From Acidobacteriota bacterium (lineage in GTDB: Bacteria > Acidobacteriota > Vicinamibacteria > Fen-336), in the NCBI GenBank assembly GCA_022340585.1, contig JAJDNS010000061.1, forward strand, positions 47,957-111,956: DNA of 64,000 nucleotides, in the 5' to 3' direction. Below, one piece after another: positions 19,189-46,279 of this stretch. Each line of letters begins with the position of its first letter. Positions within the stretch are counted from its first letter, which is position 1. The notes beneath the pieces were generated by a model. It did no database searches. It was not told the origin of the DNA and saw nothing but the letters and a program-made list of their open reading frames with translations. A program made the translations under genes and the position numbers.

Positions 19189-19936
<748 letters not shown>

Positions 19937-19944
<8 letters not shown>

Positions 19945-20779
19945 CCCCCGTCGCCTCGGTCTGCCCAACACCGTCCGCATGCGGCACGACACCCACTTCG
20001 TGGACCAGTTGGCCCGCCCCAGCGGAGAGTCCATCGGAAGGCTGGTTCCGATGGAGGAGATCATCCCCAATCCGGATCAGCCTCGCCAGACTCTCGGCGA
20101 CCTGTCGGACCTGATCTCCTCGATCCGGGAGAAGGGCGTCCTCGAGCCCCTCCTCGTTCGAAAGGTGGGGGGACGCTTCCAGATCATCGCGGGGGAGCGG
20201 CGGTTTCGCGCCGCGATGGAAGCCGGCCTCGACGAGGTCCCGTGTGTCGTCCGGGAGAGCTCGGACGCCGAGATGATGGAGCTCGCCCTCGTCGAAAATC
20301 TCCAACGCAAGGACCTGACACCCTTCGAAGAAGCGGACGGGCTCAAGGTGCTGGCCGACAGCTACGGATACACTCACGAGATGATGGCGGAGAAGCTGGG
20401 GAAGAGCCGATCCTCGGTCACCGAAACGCTAGCGCTCGCCGCCATGCCGGAGGACGTTCGGGAGCTGTGTCGGCGGGCCGACATTTACTCGAAGTCTGTT
20501 CTTCTTCAGATAGTTAGGCAGACTACTCCGGAAAAAATGAGAGCTCTTCTGGAGCGCCTGGAGAAGGAGGGAACAACTCGAGCGGAGGCCCGCCGTCTGG
20601 CGAAGGAACGTTCGTCGCGTCGGGGTCGGGGCCGCCCCCGTCACTACGTCTTCAAGTACCAGCCGAAAGGCGGGGGCTTCGCCCTCTCCCTCCAGTTCAA
20701 GAAGGCCCAGGTGCCACGGGCCGAGGTGATCCAGACGCTCGAGTCCATCCTCGAGGAGCTGAGGCGCGAGGATCGCTGA
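19937..20779 (+). CDS. parB: ParB-family protein, GTG start overlapping parA
   Basis: IIPNPDQPRQ, GERRFRAAMEAGLDEVPCVV, ENLQRKDLTPFEEA, HTH KLGKSRSSVTETLAL. Confidence 0.9.
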
Positions 20780-20926: not shown

Positions 20927-21724
20927 ATGACGCCGCTGCGTGCGCTGGTCACCGGCGCCTCGAGCGGCATCGGGGCCGCGTATGCTCGTGCCCTGCGCGC
21001 GCGGGGGGAACGCCTCATCCTCGTGGCCCGGCGGGCCGCCCGGCTGGCGCAGCTGGCGGAGGAGCTGGGCGGAGACCAGTGGGCCGTGGCGTTTCCGGTG
21101 GACCTGCGGGACCCCGGTGCGGTGCTCGAGCTCCGCGAGCGGGTCGCGGGGCGCGGGTTCGCTGTCGATCTGCTGGTCAACAACGCCGGACTCGGCCACA
21201 CCGGGCCCTTCGAGGAGCAGCCCGCCGAGATCGTCCGCGCCATGGTCGACGTCAACGTGCGTGCGGTGGTCGAGCTGACGCACGTCTTCCTGCCCGCGAT
21301 GAAGGAGCGGGGCCAGGGGCGCATCGTGAACGTCGCGTCCAACGCGGCCTTCCAGCCCGTCCCGTTCCTCGCGGTCTACGCCGCGACGAAGGCCTTCGTC
21401 CTGTCCTTCACCGAGGGGCTGGCCGAGGAGCTGCGGGGAAGCGGGATCCAGATCCAGGCGCTGTGCCCCGGGCTCACCCGGACCGAGTTTCTCGAGGTGG
21501 CGGGGACACACGAGGGGCTTCGAGTGACCCGCACTCCGATGCTGACGGCCGAGGAGGTCGTTGCCGCCTCGCTCCGGGGGCTGGACCGCGGGCGCCTGAG
21601 GGTGGTGCCGGGATGGACCAACCGCCTCGCGGCGATCGGCCAGCGTTTTCTGCCGGCCTCCGTGCCGCGACGGCTGGCGGCGGAGCTCCACCGGCCACCC
21701 CCGGGAGGAGCACGTTCCCGGTGA
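20927..21724 (+). CDS. Short-chain dehydrogenase/reductase
   Basis: LVTGASSGIGAAYARALRARGERLILVAR; YAATKAF active site. Confidence 0.88.
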   Translation: MTPLRALVTGASSGIGAAYARALRARGERLILVARRAARLAQLAEELGGDQWAVAFPVDLRDPGAVLELRERVAGRGFAVDLLVNNAGLGHTGPFEEQPAEIVRAMVDVNVRAVVELTHVFLPAMKERGQGRIVNVASNAAFQPVPFLAVYAATKAFVLSFTEGLAEELRGSGIQIQALCPGLTRTEFLEVAGTHEGLRVTRTPMLTAEEVVAASLRGLDRGRLRVVPGWTNRLAAIGQRFLPASVPRRLAAELHRPPPGGARSR

Positions 21725-21863
21725 CGCCGCGCGAGCGACCGGGATTCTTCGCTACGTGCCGGCGGCCTGCTATGATACATCGTTTATCGCCGAATAAGCC
21801 GGGCGCCTCACTCCTTCGGGCCCGGGCGACGATCATCCAAGAAGGAAGGGAGAAGGATCAACC

Positions 21864-23144
21864 ATGGAGCCGGCCCACAACAAGGCGGGGGCGAAGCCGG
21901 GGTTCGAAGAGTACGACTACTCGAATTTCTACTACGGTGCCGGAGACGATCCCCTCAACCTCCTGACCCCCTTTGCGAGGTGGTGGCGCGACGCCGTTCC
22001 CAACGGCTACTACCTGTACCAGGAGGCCCTCGAGGACGCGCCCACCACCCACGTCCGCGTCCGCAACGGGAAGACGAAGCAGGTCCAGGACCTCCTGAAC
22101 CTCGCCTCGTACAACTATCTCGGCATCTCCTACCGTCCCGAGGTCAAGCAGGCGGCCATCGAGGCGGTGGAGAAGTACGGCCTGGGGGCCTCGGGATCCC
22201 CGATCCTCTCGGGCACATTCGGCATTCACGAGAGGTTCGCGGAGGAGCTCGCCGCCTTCAAGGGGAAGGAGGCGACGATCATCTTCCCAACCGGGTACAG
22301 CGCCAACGTGGGGTTCATCTCCGCGCTGATGCGGTCCGGGGACACGGTCTTCCTCGACCAGTACTCCCATGCCTCCATCGTCGACGGGGCCATCCTCGCC
22401 AAGTCCAAGACCGTCTTCTTCCGCCACAACAACCCCCTGGATCTCGAGCGGAAGATGGCCCGGGTCAAGGGCAAGAAGCTGGTCGTGGTCGAGGGCGTCT
22501 ACTCCATGGACGGGGACGTCTGCACTCTCCCCGAGATCCTCGAGGTGACGAAGCGTCACGGGGCGCGGATGCTCATCGACGAGGCCCACTCCACGTTCCT
22601 CTTCGGACCGAACGGCCGGGGCGTGGCCGAGCACTACGGCCTCGACAAGGAGGTCGACTTCCACCTGGGCACGTTCTCCAAGAGCCTCGGAGGGCAAGGC
22701 GGCTTCGTCTGCGGCTCGCAGGACCTGATCGACTACGTGGTGGCGTTCAGCCGCTCGCGCTTCTTCTCATGCAACCTGTCCCCGGTCCTGGTGGCCGGGC
22801 TGAGGGCGGGGCTGCAGATCGCCAGCGAGGAGCCCGAGCTCAGGGCGAAGCTGTGGAGCAACGTTGCCTTTCTCCGGCGCCGCTTCGAGGAGGAGGGCGT
22901 GGACATTGGCAAGTCCAACTCGCAGGTCATGCCAGTGATGGTGAACAACGACGCCAAGGTCTTCGCGGTGGCGGAGAAGATCCAGGACCGGGGGCTGTTC
23001 CTGAACCCGGTGACCTACCCGGCGGTGCCCAAGCACAAGTCGCGCCTGCGGATCTCCGTCTCCGCCGCTCACAGCGAAGAGGATCTCGAGAAGGCGGTCG
23101 GCATCATCGCCGGCGTGCTGCGCGAGGAGGACATTTGTCGCTGA
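21864..23144 (+). CDS. Serine palmitoyltransferase-like alpha-oxoamine synthase (PLP)
   Basis: LNLASYNYLG, YGLGASGSPILSGTFGIHERFAEELAAFKGKEATIIFPTGYSAN, PLP-Lys GTFSKSLGGQGGFVCG. Confidence 0.85.
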   Translation: MEPAHNKAGAKPGFEEYDYSNFYYGAGDDPLNLLTPFARWWRDAVPNGYYLYQEALEDAPTTHVRVRNGKTKQVQDLLNLASYNYLGISYRPEVKQAAIEAVEKYGLGASGSPILSGTFGIHERFAEELAAFKGKEATIIFPTGYSANVGFISALMRSGDTVFLDQYSHASIVDGAILAKSKTVFFRHNNPLDLERKMARVKGKKLVVVEGVYSMDGDVCTLPEILEVTKRHGARMLIDEAHSTFLFGPNGRGVAEHYGLDKEVDFHLGTFSKSLGGQGGFVCGSQDLIDYVVAFSRSRFFSCNLSPVLVAGLRAGLQIASEEPELRAKLWSNVAFLRRRFEEEGVDIGKSNSQVMPVMVNNDAKVFAVAEKIQDRGLFLNPVTYPAVPKHKSRLRISVSAAHSEEDLEKAVGIIAGVLREEDICR

Positions 23145-23800
23145 CCCGCTACGGCTACCGCAACGCCATCAACGGCTTCTTCGAGTTTCCCACCGAGAAC
23201 GCGCGGCGGATCCTGCCCCGGGGGATCGAGCCGGTCGAGCCCCACCACGGCAGCAGCGTCCTGGCGGTGACCGTCTTCCACTTTCACGAGAGCGAGGTGG
23301 GCGAGTACGGCGAGGTCGTCTACGCGATCCTGACCCCGCCCCGGGTGGAGGACGGCCGCCTTCCCCAGGGGGCCTTCTTCCCCTGGCAGGTGGCGACGAC
23401 ATCGAAGGCCTCGCGCGAGCACGCCATCGAGCGGTGGCACCTGCCCCACTGGATGGACGACGTCGGGGTGGACTTCGAGCCCTCCAATGAAGGGCGGAGC
23501 CTCACCGCCCGGGTCGAGGCCGAGGGCAGCCTCGCTCTCGAGATGACCATCACCGACCACTCGTGGAACGAGGTCTCCCACCTGTACCAGTCCTTCCAGC
23601 AGGACGACGAAGGGCGGTACATGTGCAACATCCTCTTCGAGGGTGAGAAGAGCGAGCACGAGGAGGAGACGGGCAGAATCAAGCTGCACGAGCACCCCTT
23701 CAACAGGGACATCGAGATCTCCGAGGTCTTCGAGCAGCCCTTCCGCGAGATGTGGATGCGGGATGGCCACCAGCTCTTCGACCCGCTCCGCACGCTCTAG
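23135..23800 (+). CDS. Acetoacetate-decarboxylase-like fold protein; TTG start overlapping previous gene
   Basis: VAVTVFHFHESEVGEYGEVVYAILTPPRV pattern; overlapping start with the SPT-like gene. Confidence 0.5.
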   Translation: MSLTRYGYRNAINGFFEFPTENARRILPRGIEPVEPHHGSSVLAVTVFHFHESEVGEYGEVVYAILTPPRVEDGRLPQGAFFPWQVATTSKASREHAIERWHLPHWMDDVGVDFEPSNEGRSLTARVEAEGSLALEMTITDHSWNEVSHLYQSFQQDDEGRYMCNILFEGEKSEHEEETGRIKLHEHPFNRDIEISEVFEQPFREMWMRDGHQLFDPLRTL

Positions 23801-23844
23801 GATCGCGTGGCGCGGGCTCGGAGATCGGCGGCCCCGGGACCCTA

Positions 23845-24747
23845 GTGAACGACCGCATCTTCGTCGTCTTCAACCCGCACGCCGGGAAGGGCCGCGGTGC
23901 CCAGTTCGTGGCCCCGGTCCTCGAGGCGCTGTCCGCCGGCGGGGCCACGGTCGAGCATGGCCTGACCCGGTCTCCTGGCGACGAGGCCCGGCTGGCCCGG
24001 GCGGCGGTCGAGCGTGGCTTCGGCCGGATCGTGGCCGTGGGCGGCGACGGGACGTGGGGCAACGTCGGAAACGCGATCCTGGACTCGGGCCAACCGGCGG
24101 AGCTCGGGCTCATTCCAGGAGGCACCGGCTGCGACCTGGCAAAGTCCCTGGGAATCCCAGCCCGCGACGTCCACGGGTGCTGCCAGATCATCCTCGATGG
24201 CTCCACGCGGGCCATCGACGTGGGGAGGATCGAGGACAAGCACTTCCTCAACATCGCCGGGTTCGGATACGACGTGGCGGTGCTCGAGGATTCCTGGAGC
24301 GTCGGGTATCTCGAGGGGAGCCTCCTCTACCTCTACTGTGCCCTGCGCCAGCTCGGGTCGTACCGGGGGTTCCGGGTCGAGGGCGAGGTGGACGGACGCT
24401 CTCTCGGTCGGCGCGAGATGCTCATGGTGATCGTGGCCAACGCCCGCATCTTCGGCGGGGGCTTCAAGGTCGCGCCGTGGGCCGAGGTCGACGACGGCCG
24501 TCTCGACGCCGTCTCGTTCGCCAACATGGGCCTCGCGGGCCGGGTGAGCGCGCTGGTAAGGCTGCTGCTCGGCCGCCACACCTCCCACCCCCGGGTGAGC
24601 CGGGAGGCGGCCTCGCGTCTGGTGTACCGCTTCGAAGCCCCACCGACCTACGAGACCGATGGTGAGTGGAACCAGGCCCGGGGCAACGAGCTGGTGATCG
24701 AGGCCGTTCCCCGTGCCCTGCGGGTCCGGGTCCCGCGTGAGCCGTGA
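23845..24747 (+). CDS. Diacylglycerol/sphingoid-base kinase family protein (LCB5/DagK-like)
   Basis: VVFNPHAGKGRG, VAVGGDGTWGNVGNAIL, GLIPGGTGCDLAKSLGIP; GTG start. Confidence 0.88.
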   Translation: MNDRIFVVFNPHAGKGRGAQFVAPVLEALSAGGATVEHGLTRSPGDEARLARAAVERGFGRIVAVGGDGTWGNVGNAILDSGQPAELGLIPGGTGCDLAKSLGIPARDVHGCCQIILDGSTRAIDVGRIEDKHFLNIAGFGYDVAVLEDSWSVGYLEGSLLYLYCALRQLGSYRGFRVEGEVDGRSLGRREMLMVIVANARIFGGGFKVAPWAEVDDGRLDAVSFANMGLAGRVSALVRLLLGRHTSHPRVSREAASRLVYRFEAPPTYETDGEWNQARGNELVIEAVPRALRVRVPREP

Positions 24748-24835
24748 GCCGCGAGTCGCCGACATGTGGACAGCGATGACGAGGCGCGCGCCGTCGCCGG
24801 GGCGGTCGGGGCCATGACGGAGCCGTCCCGAGGAC

Positions 24836-24900
24836 CGAACCGGCCTGGGGCCGGATACCCTGGCCAAGGACACGATTCCGCCACGGCAATCGTGTCCTCA
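24836..24900 (-). repeat. Copy of the dispersed double-hairpin repeat family
   Basis: Reverse strand: GTGTCCTTGGCCAGGGTATCCGGCCCCAGGCCGGTTCGG; adjoining perfect 11-bp stem AGGACACGATT/AATCGTGTCCT. Confidence 0.8.
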
Positions 24901-25890
24901 GCGGGCGCCGCGCTCCGCGAGGCGGTGGCCGCACGTGCGCTGTCGCCCGGGGACGACCTCGCTCTCGACGAGGTGGCGGAGCGCCTGGCCGTCGCGGCCG
25001 GAGGGACCCTCGACGGGCTCATCTTCTTCGGGTCCCGGCGCACCGGGGCGGCCCGGTCCAACGCCTTCAGCGCCTACGACCTGTTCGTCATCGTCGGGGC
25101 CTACCGGCCGTTCTACGAGGCGATGTCGCGGGCGGGGCTCAGCGGCAAGGGCCCGGGGGCCCTGTCGCTGGTGAGCCACTGGCTGCCGCCGACCCAGTAC
25201 TCCCTCCGGCTCGAGGGCTCGCCGGTCCACGTCAAGGGCTCGGTCATCCGGACCGACACCTTCCACCGGGAGACCTCCCGGCGCCGCCACGATCACTTCT
25301 GCATCGGGAGGCTCTTCCAGCCGAGCCGGATCCTGTACGCGAGGGACGAGGACACGAGAGCGGCGCTCGTCGACGACCTCACCTCGGCCCACGCCGCCAC
25401 GTGGCAGTGGTCGCGGCCATGGCTGCCGTCGGTGTTCGACGCCGGAGAGTACGGGCGCAACGCCCTGGTGGTGTCGATGTCGTGGGAGGTGCGGCCCGAG
25501 CCCGCGGGACGGGCCGAGGCCCTCTGGGCGGCCCAGGAGAAGGAGCAGACGCCGGTCTTCGAGGCGCTCCTGTCAGATCTCGCCGCGAGCGGAGAGGTAG
25601 TGCCGGCCCCGAGAATGCGCTCCTGGAGCGCGGTCCAGTCGGTCGGAGACATGGAAGCCCTCCGCCTGAAGCTCTACTTTCGCCGCTCGATGGCCCGGTC
25701 CACGGCCCGGTGGCTGAAGCACGTCGTGAGCTTCGAGGGCTGGGTCGACTATCTTGTGCGCAAGGCGAACCGTCACGCCGGGGAGCCCCACGAGCTCTCC
25801 GCGCGCGAGCGGCGTTGGCCGCTGGTCTTCTTGTGGCCGCGGGTCTTCCGGTACCTGCGAGCCAGGAACCGCGAGGGGAGAGCTCCATGA
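24892..25890 (+). CDS. TAM41/Mmp37-like nucleotidyltransferase (candidate CDP-lipid synthase); start uncertain (ORF opens at 24766)
   Basis: FFGSRRTG...AYDLFVIVG, LPPTQYSLRL, VKGSVIRTDTF...HFCIGRLFQPSRILYA resembles recalled TAM41 motifs; between lipid kinase and CDP-alcohol phosphatidyltransferase. Confidence 0.55.
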   Translation: MSSAGAALREAVAARALSPGDDLALDEVAERLAVAAGGTLDGLIFFGSRRTGAARSNAFSAYDLFVIVGAYRPFYEAMSRAGLSGKGPGALSLVSHWLPPTQYSLRLEGSPVHVKGSVIRTDTFHRETSRRRHDHFCIGRLFQPSRILYARDEDTRAALVDDLTSAHAATWQWSRPWLPSVFDAGEYGRNALVVSMSWEVRPEPAGRAEALWAAQEKEQTPVFEALLSDLAASGEVVPAPRMRSWSAVQSVGDMEALRLKLYFRRSMARSTARWLKHVVSFEGWVDYLVRKANRHAGEPHELSARERRWPLVFLWPRVFRYLRARNREGRAP

Positions 25891-26624
25891 GCCCGGGTCT
25901 TTCGATCTTGGTCACCGTCCTCGGCATCGCGATCCTGTCCATGCCCGTCTTCGCGGTCACGCGGCGGGGACAGAAGGACGCGGATGCCGAGCGCAAGGGC
26001 TCCCGGTTCCTCCTGGGCGTGGGGGACTTCCTGATCCACTGGTTCATGTGGGCGATCGGTCCCGTGGAGCGCTTGCTCCTGAAGATCGGAGCCACGCCCA
26101 ACCACATGAATGCCTTCGGTCTCCTCTTCGGGCTCCTGAGCGGGATCCTCATCGGCACCCGGCACCTCGAGGCCGGGGGGTGGGCCATCGCCCTCGCCGG
26201 AATCTGCGACATCCTCGACGGGCGCCTCGCCCGCGCCCAGGAGGTCGCGTCGCCCTACGGGAAGTTCATCGATTCCACCCTCGACCGCTTCGTCGAGACC
26301 TTCGCCTTCCTGGGCTTCGCGGTTTACTTCGGCGGGCAGACAATCGGCGCCCTCATCGTGGCCGCGGGACTGGGGGGATCGCTCCTCGTCAGCTACGCCC
26401 AGGCCCGGGGGGAGACGGTGGGCGTCTCGGGCTCGGGAGGGCTGATGCAGCGAGCGGAGCGGCTGGTCCTTCAGATCCTCGCCTGCCTCGTCGATCCCAC
26501 CGTGACGCGGGTCGCGGGCTGGGAGGAGGGGACGCTCCTGCTCTGGGTCCTCGCGGTGATGGCGGTGGGATCGATGGGGACCGCGATCTACCGGACGGCC
26601 TGGATCGCCCGCAAGCTGCCGTAG
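25887..26624 (+). CDS. CDP-alcohol phosphatidyltransferase family protein
   Basis: Motif DILDGRLARAQEVASPYGKFIDSTLD; multiple TM helices; ATGA overlap with upstream gene. Confidence 0.9.
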   Translation: MSPGLSILVTVLGIAILSMPVFAVTRRGQKDADAERKGSRFLLGVGDFLIHWFMWAIGPVERLLLKIGATPNHMNAFGLLFGLLSGILIGTRHLEAGGWAIALAGICDILDGRLARAQEVASPYGKFIDSTLDRFVETFAFLGFAVYFGGQTIGALIVAAGLGGSLLVSYAQARGETVGVSGSGGLMQRAERLVLQILACLVDPTVTRVAGWEEGTLLLWVLAVMAVGSMGTAIYRTAWIARKLP

Positions 26625-26702: not shown

Positions 26703-26846
26703 TTCCGTTGTTCCCTGCCCATTCGCCCCGCGGCAGGCGCCGGGCCCAGACGAGACCGGGCCGTGTGTCCCTCGCCCGCTTGCACGCCTCGCCGTTCGGC
26801 GGCAGAATGCCGCTTCACCACCCAGAAGAGGACAAGGAGGCACGCG

Positions 26847-28796
26847 GTGTCCGACCTGTATCCTGTCAAGCCCCACGTTGCCGATCGGGCCCACGTCGGC
26901 AGCATGGCCGAGTACGAACGGCTGTATCGACTCTCCCTCGACAACCCCGAGTGGTTCTGGGCCGAGCAGGCGAAGGCCATCGACTGGTATCACCCGTGGC
27001 AGAACGTGTTCGACGCCGACTACGACGAGGTGGACTTCGCCTGGTTCTCGGGGGGGCGTCTCAACGCGTCCTTCAACTGCGTGGACCGGCACCTGAGCGA
27101 GCGGGGCGACCGCACCGCGATCATCTGGGCCCAGGACGAGGTGGGGGCCTACCGTCACATCTCCTATCGGGAGCTGAAGCACAACGTGAGTCGGGTGGCC
27201 AACGTGCTCCTGGCCCACGGCGTCCGGCGGGGCGACCGGGTGTGCGTGTACATGGGCATGATGCCGGAGCTCGCCTACACCATGCTCGCCTGCGCGCGGA
27301 TCGGGGCGGTGCACTCGGTGGTGTTCGGCGGGTTCAGCGCGGAGGCCCTGCGCGACCGGATCGTCGACGCCCGCTGCAAGGTGGTGGTCACCGCCAACGA
27401 GGGCCTGCGCGGCGGCAAGCACATTCCCCTGAAGAAGACCGTGGACCGGGCCATCGACGGGATGTCCATGGTCGAGACGGTGCTGGTGGCCCGCCGCACC
27501 GACAACGAGGTCCCCATGAGGCCGGGGCGGGACCACTGGCTCGACGAGGAGTGCCACAAGCAGCGCTCGACCTGCACCGCGGAATGGATGGGAGCCGAGG
27601 ATCCGCTCTTCATCCTGTACACGTCGGGGAGCACCGGGAAGCCCAAGGGGCTGCTGCACACCACCGGGGGCTACCTCGTCTACGCCGCCCACACCCACAA
27701 GTTGGTCTTCGACTACCACCCCGGCGACGTGTACTTCTGCGCGGCCGACGTGGGCTGGATCACCGGCCACAGCTACATCGTCTACGGGCCGCTGGCCAAC
27801 GGGGCCACGACCGTGCTCTTCGAGTCGACCCCGACGTACCCGGACCCCGGGCGGTACTGGAGGATCGTGGACGATCTGGGGGTGGACATCTTCTACACCG
27901 CACCGACCGCGCTCCGGGCCCTGGCCCAGTCCGGGGACGAGTGGGTGAAGCGATACAAGCGCAAGTCGCTCCGGGTCCTGGGGACGGTGGGGGAGCCGAT
28001 CAACCCCGAGATCTGGCGCTGGTATCACGACTCGGTGGGAGACGAGCGTTGCGCGGTGGTCGACACCTGGTGGCAGACGGAGACCGGCGGCATCCTCATC
28101 ACCCCCCTGCCCGGGGCCACTCCCACCAAGCCCGGCTCGGCCACCCTGCCCTTCTTTGGCGTGCAGCCGGTGGTCCTGGACACGAACAACGGGAAGGTCC
28201 TCGAGGGCAACGACGTGAGAGGGGCACTGTGCCTGGGGGCGCCGTGGCCCGGGCTGGCACGCACGGTCTGGGGCGACCACCAGCGATTCAAGGAGACGTA
28301 CTTCAGCCAGTACCCGGGGTTCTACTTCACGGGGGACGGGGTGCGGCGCGACGAGGACGGCTACTACTGGATCACCGGGCGGATCGACGACGTCCTCAAC
28401 GTCTCGGGCCACCGCCTGGGCACCGCCGAGGTGGAGAGCGCGCTGGTGGCCCACGACTCGGTGGCCGAGGCCGCGGTCGTGGGGTGCCCACACCCGATCA
28501 AGGGGCAGGGGATCTACGCCTACGTCAGCCTGACCTCCGAGTACACCGACCAGGACCCCGAGCAGGTGAAGGGGGCCCTCAAAGAGCAGGTCCGCCACGT
28601 GATCGGGGCCTTCGCCGCCCCCGACGTCATCCACGTCGCGTCGGGACTTCCCAAGACCCGCAGCGGCAAGATCATGCGGCGGATCCTGAGGAAGATCGCG
28701 GCCTCCGAGTACGACGGCCTCGGGGACGTCAGCACCCTGGCCGAGCCCGACGTGGTGGAGCGTCTGGTGGAGGAGCACAAGGCGGCCCAGGAGTAG
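26847..28796 (+). CDS. acs: Acetyl-CoA synthetase
   Basis: [59 protein letters not shown] start likely. Confidence 0.93.
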
Positions 28797-44629: not shown

Positions 44630-44690
44630 GCCAGGGACACAGTCGTACGACTGTGTCCCTGGCCAATGCAGCCGGCCGCAAGGCCGGTTC
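44630..44690 (+). repeat. Copy of double-hairpin repeat family with a 34-bp perfect palindrome, between convergent genes
   Basis: GCCAGGGACACAGTCGTACGACTGTGTCCCTGGC (44630-44663) then CAATGCAGCCGGCCGCAAGGCCGGTTCGGCC. Confidence 0.88.
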
Positions 44691-44695
44691 GGCCC

Positions 44696-46279
44696 TCAGG
44701 CCTCGTAGCCCTGGGGAGCACGGAAGCCCCCGACGACGTCGGCCATCTCGGCCGCGACGCCGATGGGGGTGGCGTCCTCGAGGTAGGGCCCGAGGATCTG
44801 GATCCCGCACGGGAGCCCGTCGCGGGTCAGACCCACCGGCGCGGTCGTGGCGGGCAGGCCGGTCAACGTCGCGAAGCTGATCCAGAACATCAGGTCCCGG
44901 TACGCCCGCGGGCCCTCGGGGGTGGCGAGGCGACGGGCCTCCATGGGCATCCGGTGGTCGTGGGGAAAGGCGGCCACCAAAGCGGTGGGCATCAGGAAGG
45001 CGTCGTGGGTCCGGAAGTAGTCCTGCCAGGCCGCCCGGGCCACCATTCTCCGGCTGCTCGCGGCCAGGAAGTGCTTGTGCGGGTCCACCCGCGCCTGTGC
45101 GCGCTGGGCGTCGAGGCCTCCGGCGGGGTCCGCGGCGCGGGCCCGCTCCTCCTCCACGTCGTCGTCCTTCAGGTCGAAGGCGAAGAAGGCGCTCAGGAGG
45201 TACCAGTAGGTCTCGAACTGCTCCCGGGGCACCACACCGTCCGGCCAGCCCTCCTCGAGGCGGGCCCCGGCCTTGCGGAGGGCAGCGACCGCGGCCTCGA
45301 GGGTCTCCCGCACGTCCGAGGACGGGGGGCACAGGGGGTCGTCGAGGACGTAGCCGATGCGGTGGTCGGCCAGGCGGTCGTGGCGCGGCGGGGGGAGGGT
45401 CCAGCGGTAGGCGGTGGCGTCGTCGCCGTCCGGTCCGCCGAGCACTTCCAGGGCCAGCGCGAGGTCGCCGGCATGCCGGGCCATGGGACCCGCGACCGGG
45501 AGATCGGTGGGAGGCTGGGGCGGGCTTCCCGGGAGCGGCGGGATCTGGCCTCGCCGCGGAACCACGTTCAGGGTGGGCTTGTGACCGTAGACCCCACAGA
45601 AGTGGGCGGGGGTCCGGATGGAGCCCCCGATGTCGCTGCCCACGGCCACGTACCCGAGCCCCGCGGCCAGGGCCGCGGCGTTGCCCCCGCTCGATCCGCC
45701 GGGGGTGCGCTCCAGGTCCCAGGGGTTGTTCGTGGTGCCGTAGACCTCGTTGTAGCTCTGCAGGTCCCAGAGCAGGAGGGGCACGTTGGTGTTGCCCAGA
45801 ACGATCGCGCCGGCCGCCCGGAGCCGGGCGACGGCCGCCGAGTCCTCCGCGGGGCGGTGATCCGCCAGCGACGGCAGGCCCACGGTCTGGGGCACGCCGG
45901 CGATGCCGAAGGACTCCTTGATGGCCACCGGAAGGCCGTGGAGCGGCCCCCAGCTTTCGCCTCGCGCCCGTGCGTCGTCGGCCGCGCGGGCTCGGGAGAG
46001 GGCGGAGTCCGACAGCACGTTGACGTAGGCGTTCAGAGTCGGGTCGAAGCGATCGATGCGGTCGAGCATCAGCCGGGTGAGCTCGAGGGACGATAGGCGT
46101 CCCTCCGCGAGAGCGCGGGCCGCCTCGACCGCGGAGGCGAAGGCGAGCCCCGACGGGAGGACGTCGCCGGGGGCGGAGGCGCCGCTGCGCGCCAGGGCGG
46201 CCACCACCCCGGCGCCGAGGCCCCGGGACAGAAAGGCGCGCCGCGTGGAGACGGGACGCGGCGGCTCGACGCTGGACAT
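44696..46279 (-). CDS. Amidase-signature family enzyme, probable Tat export
   Basis: Tat-like TRRAFLSRGLG; TPGGSSGGNAAALAAGLGYVAVGSDIGGSIRTPAHFCGVYGHKPT. Confidence 0.9.
   Translation of the reverse strand: MSSVEPPRPVSTRRAFLSRGLGAGVVAALARSGASAPGDVLPSGLAFASAVEAARALAEGRLSSLELTRLMLDRIDRFDPTLNAYVNVLSDSALSRARAADDARARGESWGPLHGLPVAIKESFGIAGVPQTVGLPSLADHRPAEDSAAVARLRAAGAIVLGNTNVPLLLWDLQSYNEVYGTTNNPWDLERTPGGSSGGNAAALAAGLGYVAVGSDIGGSIRTPAHFCGVYGHKPTLNVVPRRGQIPPLPGSPPQPPTDLPVAGPMARHAGDLALALEVLGGPDGDDATAYRWTLPPPRHDRLADHRIGYVLDDPLCPPSSDVRETLEAAVAALRKAGARLEEGWPDGVVPREQFETYWYLLSAFFAFDLKDDDVEEERARAADPAGGLDAQRAQARVDPHKHFLAASSRRMVARAAWQDYFRTHDAFLMPTALVAAFPHDHRMPMEARRLATPEGPRAYRDLMFWISFATLTGLPATTAPVGLTRDGLPCGIQILGPYLEDATPIGVAAEMADVVGGFRAPQGYEA

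Follow-up and report, generated by a model that had tools for sequence, protein, structure and literature searches.

Can a bacterium build a phosphosphingolipid by the logic of glycerophospholipid synthesis, that is, through a CDP-activated ceramide? The question is raised by six consecutive genes, all on the + strand, at positions 20927-26624 of a 64,000-nucleotide stretch of DNA (hereafter the window), which lies within contig 66 of a metagenome-assembled genome of 6.26 Mb in 231 contigs from a soil acidobacterium, assigned through named relatives to the Vicinamibacteria (Acidobacteriota). The original prediction had read these genes as an SDR, a serine-palmitoyltransferase (SPT)-like synthase, an acetoacetate-decarboxylase (ADC)-like protein, an LCB5/DagK-like kinase, a TAM41-like nucleotidyltransferase and a CDP-alcohol phosphatidyltransferase, and had proposed that together they make a CDP-activated sphingophospholipid. 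We consider it probable that these genes serve a dedicated phosphosphingolipid pathway via CDP-ceramide. This reading is built on the families and folds of the enzymes, the order and shared inheritance of the genes and the conservation of active-site residues, from which we infer the substrates, the order of the second to fourth steps and the headgroup.

Conservation of the gene set

Co-conservation of the six genes had been named beforehand as a check, and it was found at several levels. The same genes adjoin one another in 13 further genomes that carry the Tam41-like gene, wherever the contig permits, with the two halves of the cluster divergent in the most distant of these relatives. A scan of the genomes of 84,980 species returned 41 named loci spanning Vicinamibacteria, Gemmatimonadota, Eisenbacteria, Krumholzibacteriota and Gammaproteobacteria. 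The arrangement is therefore not due to chance. Two layouts occur, one collinear (SDR-SPT-ADC-kinase-PlsC-Tam41-CDP) and one divergent, (SPT-ADC-kinase) / (PlsC-Tam41-CDP), and the genes for the SPT, the ADC protein, the kinase, the nucleotidyltransferase and the CDP-alcohol enzyme travel together across phyla. Among 40 genomes of the class, with an SPT counted as cluster-type above 700 bits, 13 hold both the cluster-type SPT and the Tam41-like gene, 2 the SPT only, 1 the Tam41-like gene only and 24 none of the two (Fisher p 1.1e-7, without correction for kinship); in the sole genome with the Tam41-like gene only, a contig end truncates the cluster. Clusters of the Gemmatimonas type can be devoid of an SPT gene, and three of the four such genomes tested carry a cluster-type SPT and a second ADC gene elsewhere, the fourth giving a weak partial SPT match only. 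At L127, L128 and L129, all of this type, the SPT with its own ADC paralogue stands apart from a cluster that holds a second ADC gene beside the kinase.

The system is patchy within Acidobacteriota, the Tam41-like gene being present in 5 of 247 sampled genomes, so that horizontal transfer of the gene set appears likely.

The PLP enzyme and ketone reduction

Searches of Pfam and NCBIfam confirmed the SDR, the alpha-oxoamine synthase, the YegS/DagK-type kinase and the CDP-alcohol phosphotransferase. The alpha-oxoamine synthase (21864-23144), a pyridoxal-phosphate (PLP) enzyme, groups by sequence with serine palmitoyltransferases. In the PDB it matches SPTs best (3a2b/8guh, 4.5e-87); its PLP-lysine motif, GTFSKSLGGQGG, with Lys273 in GTFSKS, and its DEAHS motif are the same as in 3a2b and 2jg2, and some distant cluster members read GTFSKA. 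In each of two trees, from which ALAS/HemA, CqsA and cysteate enzymes were left out, the cluster proteins are united in a single clade (100/99-100) on a long branch of its own. This clade joins the SPT references with ultrafast bootstrap/SH-aLRT values of 99/96 and 97/95, away from KBL and the BioF of E. coli. The SPT-like label thus held, and the trees rule out KBL or BioF as the identity of the enzyme; the genome's one other member of the family is a clear KBL (621 bits, above cut-off).

It might still be argued that the enzyme condenses an amino acid other than serine (alanine, glycine or cysteate, for instance) and so leads to a different amino lipid. Its scores lie below the NCBIfam cut-offs for SPT (NF047599 347/500, NF047600 358/640 and NF047603 271/670 bits), these models being group-specific, and are as high for bioF as for SPT. 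The long branch, the GTFSKA of some members and the cysteate and HemA/CqsA references lying outside the trees speak for the same alternative. We nevertheless regard it as quite improbable, given the grouping with SPT references away from KBL and BioF and the SPT structures among the best matches. The chemistry also suggests that a serine-derived base would offer a primary hydroxyl to the kinase and CDP steps, whereas a glycine- or alanine-derived base would have none.

Upstream lies a classical SDR (20927-21724; PF00106, 3.9e-53), a candidate 3-ketosphinganine (or 3-ketoceramide) reductase whose gene is syntenic upstream of the SPT gene in Vicinamibacteria-type clusters. By family this SDR is a generic reductase. 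Across many of the other phyla a zinc alcohol dehydrogenase gene stands beside the kinase instead, following it in the divergent clusters, and at one locus, L088, an extended SDR is encoded; the ketone-reduction step may have been recruited anew more than once.

The ADC-fold protein and the lipid kinase

The protein that follows the SPT (23135-23800) matches PF06314 below threshold (7e-6), and a sequence search with the profile of its family returned no match. Its AlphaFold model (pLDDT 90), however, retrieved only ADC-fold enzymes among the 24 Foldseek matches at E<=0.001, which confirms the fold of the predicted ADC-like protein; the family alignment contains no invariant lysine. The protein is nearly as conserved as the SPT and always adjoins it where the assembly permits. 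Next comes a YegS/DagK-family lipid kinase (23845-24747 from a refined GTG start at 23845; PF00781, 1.8e-29; TIGR00147, 161 bits against a cut-off of 118.65), in which the VAVGGDGT motif is invariant among cluster members and which is a candidate sphingoid-base or ceramide kinase.

A Tam41-fold nucleotidyltransferase with a homologue at the CpgC position

The nucleotidyltransferase (24892-25890) has no Pfam match in the window genome, and PF09139 reached at best an E-value of 0.037 among cluster members. Because a PDB sequence search with the Tam41-like profile also returned no match, structure prediction was required. A model built by AlphaFold from a 12-sequence alignment (pLDDT 87) gave five Foldseek matches in the PDB at E<=0.001, all of them Tam41 CDP-diacylglycerol (CDP-DAG) synthases of eukaryotic or bacterial origin. 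The modelled protein therefore has the Tam41 CDP-DAG-synthase fold, in line with its first labelling. With Tam41/TAMM41 (PDB 6ig4, 7ecd) it shares this predicted fold (TM up to 0.69 of target) and a GS...D nucleotidyltransferase motif; it differs in its low identity (11-13%), in having no Pfam Tam41 match above cut-off, and in a gene context that points to a sphingoid rather than a diacylglycerol substrate. A role as the cell's only CDP-DAG synthase is ruled out by the presence of CdsA.

A link to known ceramide loci came from plasmids. Searching these by tblastn revealed a homologue (1e-12) directly after an 'acylglycerol kinase' on two Pseudomonas plasmids, in a full ceramide cluster comprising acyl-AMP ligase, epimerase, acyl carrier protein (ACP), SPT, N-acetyltransferase, LptF/G, phosphoesterase, CDP-alcohol enzyme and cytidylyltransferase. 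Alignment of the window family to the CpgC-position protein of that cluster with hhalign gave P 99.7 and E 1.1e-25 over 287 columns. In Roseomonas the order phosphoesterase, CDP-alcohol enzyme, kinase, Tam41-like homologue, SPT, ACP equals that of CC_1158 to CC_1163 in Caulobacter, so the homologue appears to occupy the position of CpgC (CC_1161), an assignment made from position and gene content. CC_1161 is genetically required for ceramide phosphoglycerate, and the authors of that work suggested that the ceramide is NDP-activated and that a transferase is missing (PMC11324152). The window protein is thus a candidate CTP:ceramide-1-phosphate cytidylyltransferase. Ceramide/CPG2-type gene sets, whole or in part, were seen on Pseudomonas pPNP1 and pBYT5-2 (L141/L142), Diaphorobacter pDCB2 (L143) and Roseomonas p546-2 (L144); pBYT5-2 and pDCB2 are typed as conjugative, so sphingolipid synthesis may be mobile.

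A PlsC-type acyltransferase as a candidate seventh member

The original prediction recognised no ceramide synthase here and placed acylation elsewhere or nowhere. None is indeed present in the window cluster, but acylation need not be absent. A gene for a PlsC-type acyltransferase lies between the kinase and the Tam41-like gene in 11 of the 13 relatives and within the cluster in 38 of the 41 loci, beginning at or near the kinase stop in the collinear layout. Its product carries the PlsC-type motifs NHQSxxD and, mostly, EGHR. The gene stands outside the cluster in the window genome (G000), G001 and G006, and is kept elsewhere in all three; in the window genome it is G000:C117:7411-8190, which scores 312 bits, the next-best PlsC of the genome reaching 48 bits. 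We propose this protein as a candidate ceramide synthase and seventh member of the pathway, which would N-acylate. A search for the TRAM/LAG1/CLN8 ceramide synthase family (PF03798) matched nothing in 21 genomes, nor did any control match.

These placements bear on the idea that activation precedes any N-acylation, in which case a CDP-sphingoid base would form and the headgroup would be set on the free base. That the window cluster holds no acyltransferase gene, and that the Tam41-like gene comes directly after the kinase here and in G001 and G006, would fit this idea; the position of PlsC in the 11 relatives and its retention elsewhere in the other three genomes make it, in our view, very unlikely.

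The CDP-alcohol transferase and the headgroup

The last gene (25887-26624) encodes a class I CDP-alcohol phosphotransferase of the phosphatidylinositol phosphate (PIP) synthase type. A profile search with this enzyme matches PIP synthases and related structures; the enzyme scores under the NCBIfam cut-offs (NF045883 99/170, NF040950 122/180 and NF052561 99/350 bits). The signature DxxDGxxAR...GxxxDxxxD is complete in 35/35 cluster enzymes, and the residues that align with S132, R155 and R195 of Mt PIP synthase are likewise kept in all 35. For the two arginines, a role in holding the phosphate group of inositol phosphate has been proposed (PMC4634129). Myo-inositol-phosphate synthase (MIPS) is encoded in the window genome and in 35 of the 40 genomes searched.

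Each of the kinase, PlsC, Tam41-like and CDP-alcohol families has members acting on glycerolipids, and PIP synthase normally uses CDP-DAG. These enzymes could thus make an ordinary glycerolipid, for example phosphatidylinositol phosphate from diacylglycerol, and merely lie beside an SPT operon; the sphingolipids would then be finished separately, for instance by transfer from phosphatidylinositol as in Bacteroides, which forms inositol ceramide from PI-DAG via an IPC synthase (PMC9246714). We judge this unlikely. The genome already holds separate CdsA, PgsA and PssA genes, a ClsA-like gene and another PIPS-like gene, so the cluster set would be free for another lipid. The Tam41-like gene tracks the cluster-type SPT and has a homologue at the CpgC position in ceramide clusters. 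Within the window-type clusters no IPC synthase of the PAP2 type was seen, and genome G005 keeps the CDP-alcohol gene beside SPT and ADC without the other lipid genes.

The proposed pathway

Taken in sequence, the SPT-type enzyme would condense serine with an acyl thioester and the SDR would reduce the ketone. The YegS-type kinase would then phosphorylate the sphingoid base or ceramide at its primary hydroxyl, and the PlsC-type acyltransferase, encoded on contig C117 in this genome, would add the second acyl chain to give ceramide-1-phosphate. The Tam41-fold enzyme would move CMP from CTP to yield CDP-ceramide, and the PIP-synthase-type transferase would replace CMP with a phosphorylated alcohol, for which inositol-1-phosphate is the likeliest candidate. 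The product, ceramide phosphoinositol phosphate, might finally be trimmed by a putative phosphatase. A sharper version of this scheme is a Kennedy-style route in which sphinganine is phosphorylated first, a PlsC-family rather than a GNAT or LAG1 enzyme N-acylates sphinganine-1-phosphate, the Tam41-family enzyme forms CDP-ceramide and the PIP-synthase relative forms ceramide phosphoinositol phosphate, Caulobacter CpgC being the same kind of CDP-ceramide synthase; we offer this version tentatively, as possible but somewhat doubtful.

Besides the NCBIfam scores of the PLP enzyme, several observations weigh against a CDP-ceramide pathway as drawn here. The position of PIP synthase K135 is R in 34 of the 35 cluster enzymes and Q in one, that of this genome, and another phosphorylated acceptor than inositol phosphate is conceivable for this reason. 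G005, a genome 98% complete, has an SPT-ADC-CDP-alcohol trio (L125, 6632-9410) with neither kinase nor acyltransferase nearby and no Tam41-like gene anywhere in the genome; its CDP-lipid may come from another synthase, and one genome at least must obtain the donor from elsewhere. The gammaproteobacterial genome G046 (L116, L120) carries a classical proteobacterial SPT in addition to the cluster-type enzyme. Lastly, the kinase and CDP-alcohol enzyme bear only a remote resemblance to their counterparts in the CPG2-type locus on the Pseudomonas plasmids. On balance, the CDP-activated sphingophospholipid reading is supported in its main line by the SPT trees, the co-conservation and the CpgC-position homology, with CDP-ceramide itself a putative intermediate.

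Gene boundaries, flanks and a dispersed repeat

Gene calls agreed with the predicted run of six genes and with both overlaps: the ADC gene opens at a TTG (23135) within the end of the SPT gene, whose stop is at 23142-23144, and an ATGA at 25887 joins the nucleotidyltransferase and CDP-alcohol genes. Before the cluster lies parAB (19189-20779), and after it a gene for acetyl-CoA synthetase (26763-28796).

A copy of a dispersed palindromic repeat (24800-24901), recognised by blastn within the same genome, sits where relatives carry the PlsC gene; the same place in G001 is free of the repeat. The element is ~70-90 bp long with the core GGACACGAT...ATCGTGTCC, is 85-91% identical over 69-88 bp at L002-L008 and L110, and matches more than 50 other places in the genome. 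Further copies lie in the window at 1351-1395, 1423-1470 and 44653-44700. Because 24800-24900 is dispersed repeat, a nucleotidyltransferase start at 24766 is disfavoured, as it would put the N-terminal 45 codons inside the repeat; the gene probably starts at GTG 24892 or 24925.

Comparison with known systems

The original prediction implied that known loci have no kinase, CDP-lipid synthase and CDP-alcohol transferase beside the SPT. This proved incorrect, for all three kinds are present in the CPG2 locus of Caulobacter, where an NDP-activated ceramide has already been proposed. Among the papers searched, none used the term CDP-ceramide, and the compound has so far been a matter of speculation, an NDP-activated ceramide having been contemplated for Caulobacter (PMC11324152). 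What the window-type cluster adds is a CTP enzyme of Tam41 fold that immediately precedes a transferase of the PIP-synthase type, beside an SPT, in several phyla. It also brings a new candidate class of ceramide synthase, the PlsC type, and a specific, testable sphingolipid pathway for Acidobacteriota, Gemmatimonadota and others, and its link to the CpgC position turns the question of CpgC function into one in vitro assay.

Like the CPG/CPG2 locus of Caulobacter crescentus (CC_1152-CC_1168; CpgA, CpgB, CpgC, CpgD; PMC11324152, PMC10331486, PMC12275187), the window cluster sets an SPT beside a lipid kinase, a candidate CTP-dependent lipid nucleotidyltransferase and a CDP-alcohol enzyme, and its nucleotidyltransferase has a homologue at the CpgC position of the Roseomonas and Pseudomonas versions. 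However, neither the window cluster nor the loci examined in relatives contain an acyl-AMP ligase, a dedicated ACP, the GNAT-type ceramide synthase bCerS, the CerR-type epimerase or a CpgB-type kinase, and the window cluster also has no LptF/G or CpgD; what it has instead is a YegS-type kinase, an ADC-fold protein and a transferase of the PIP-synthase type, joined in relatives by an acyltransferase of the PlsC type. With Bacteroides thetaiotaomicron (BT_1522-BT_1526; PMC9246714) it shares a PIP-synthase-type CDP-alcohol enzyme and MIPS in a presumed sphingolipid maker. In Bacteroides this enzyme produces PI-DAG, from which an IPC synthase transfers the headgroup to ceramide (PMC9246714), whereas here the CDP-lipid maker and the transferase lie within the SPT operon, with no IPC synthase seen in the cluster. 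Since the defining parts of both are absent or different, the window system works like the phosphosphingolipid pathways of Caulobacter and Bacteroides yet belongs to neither.

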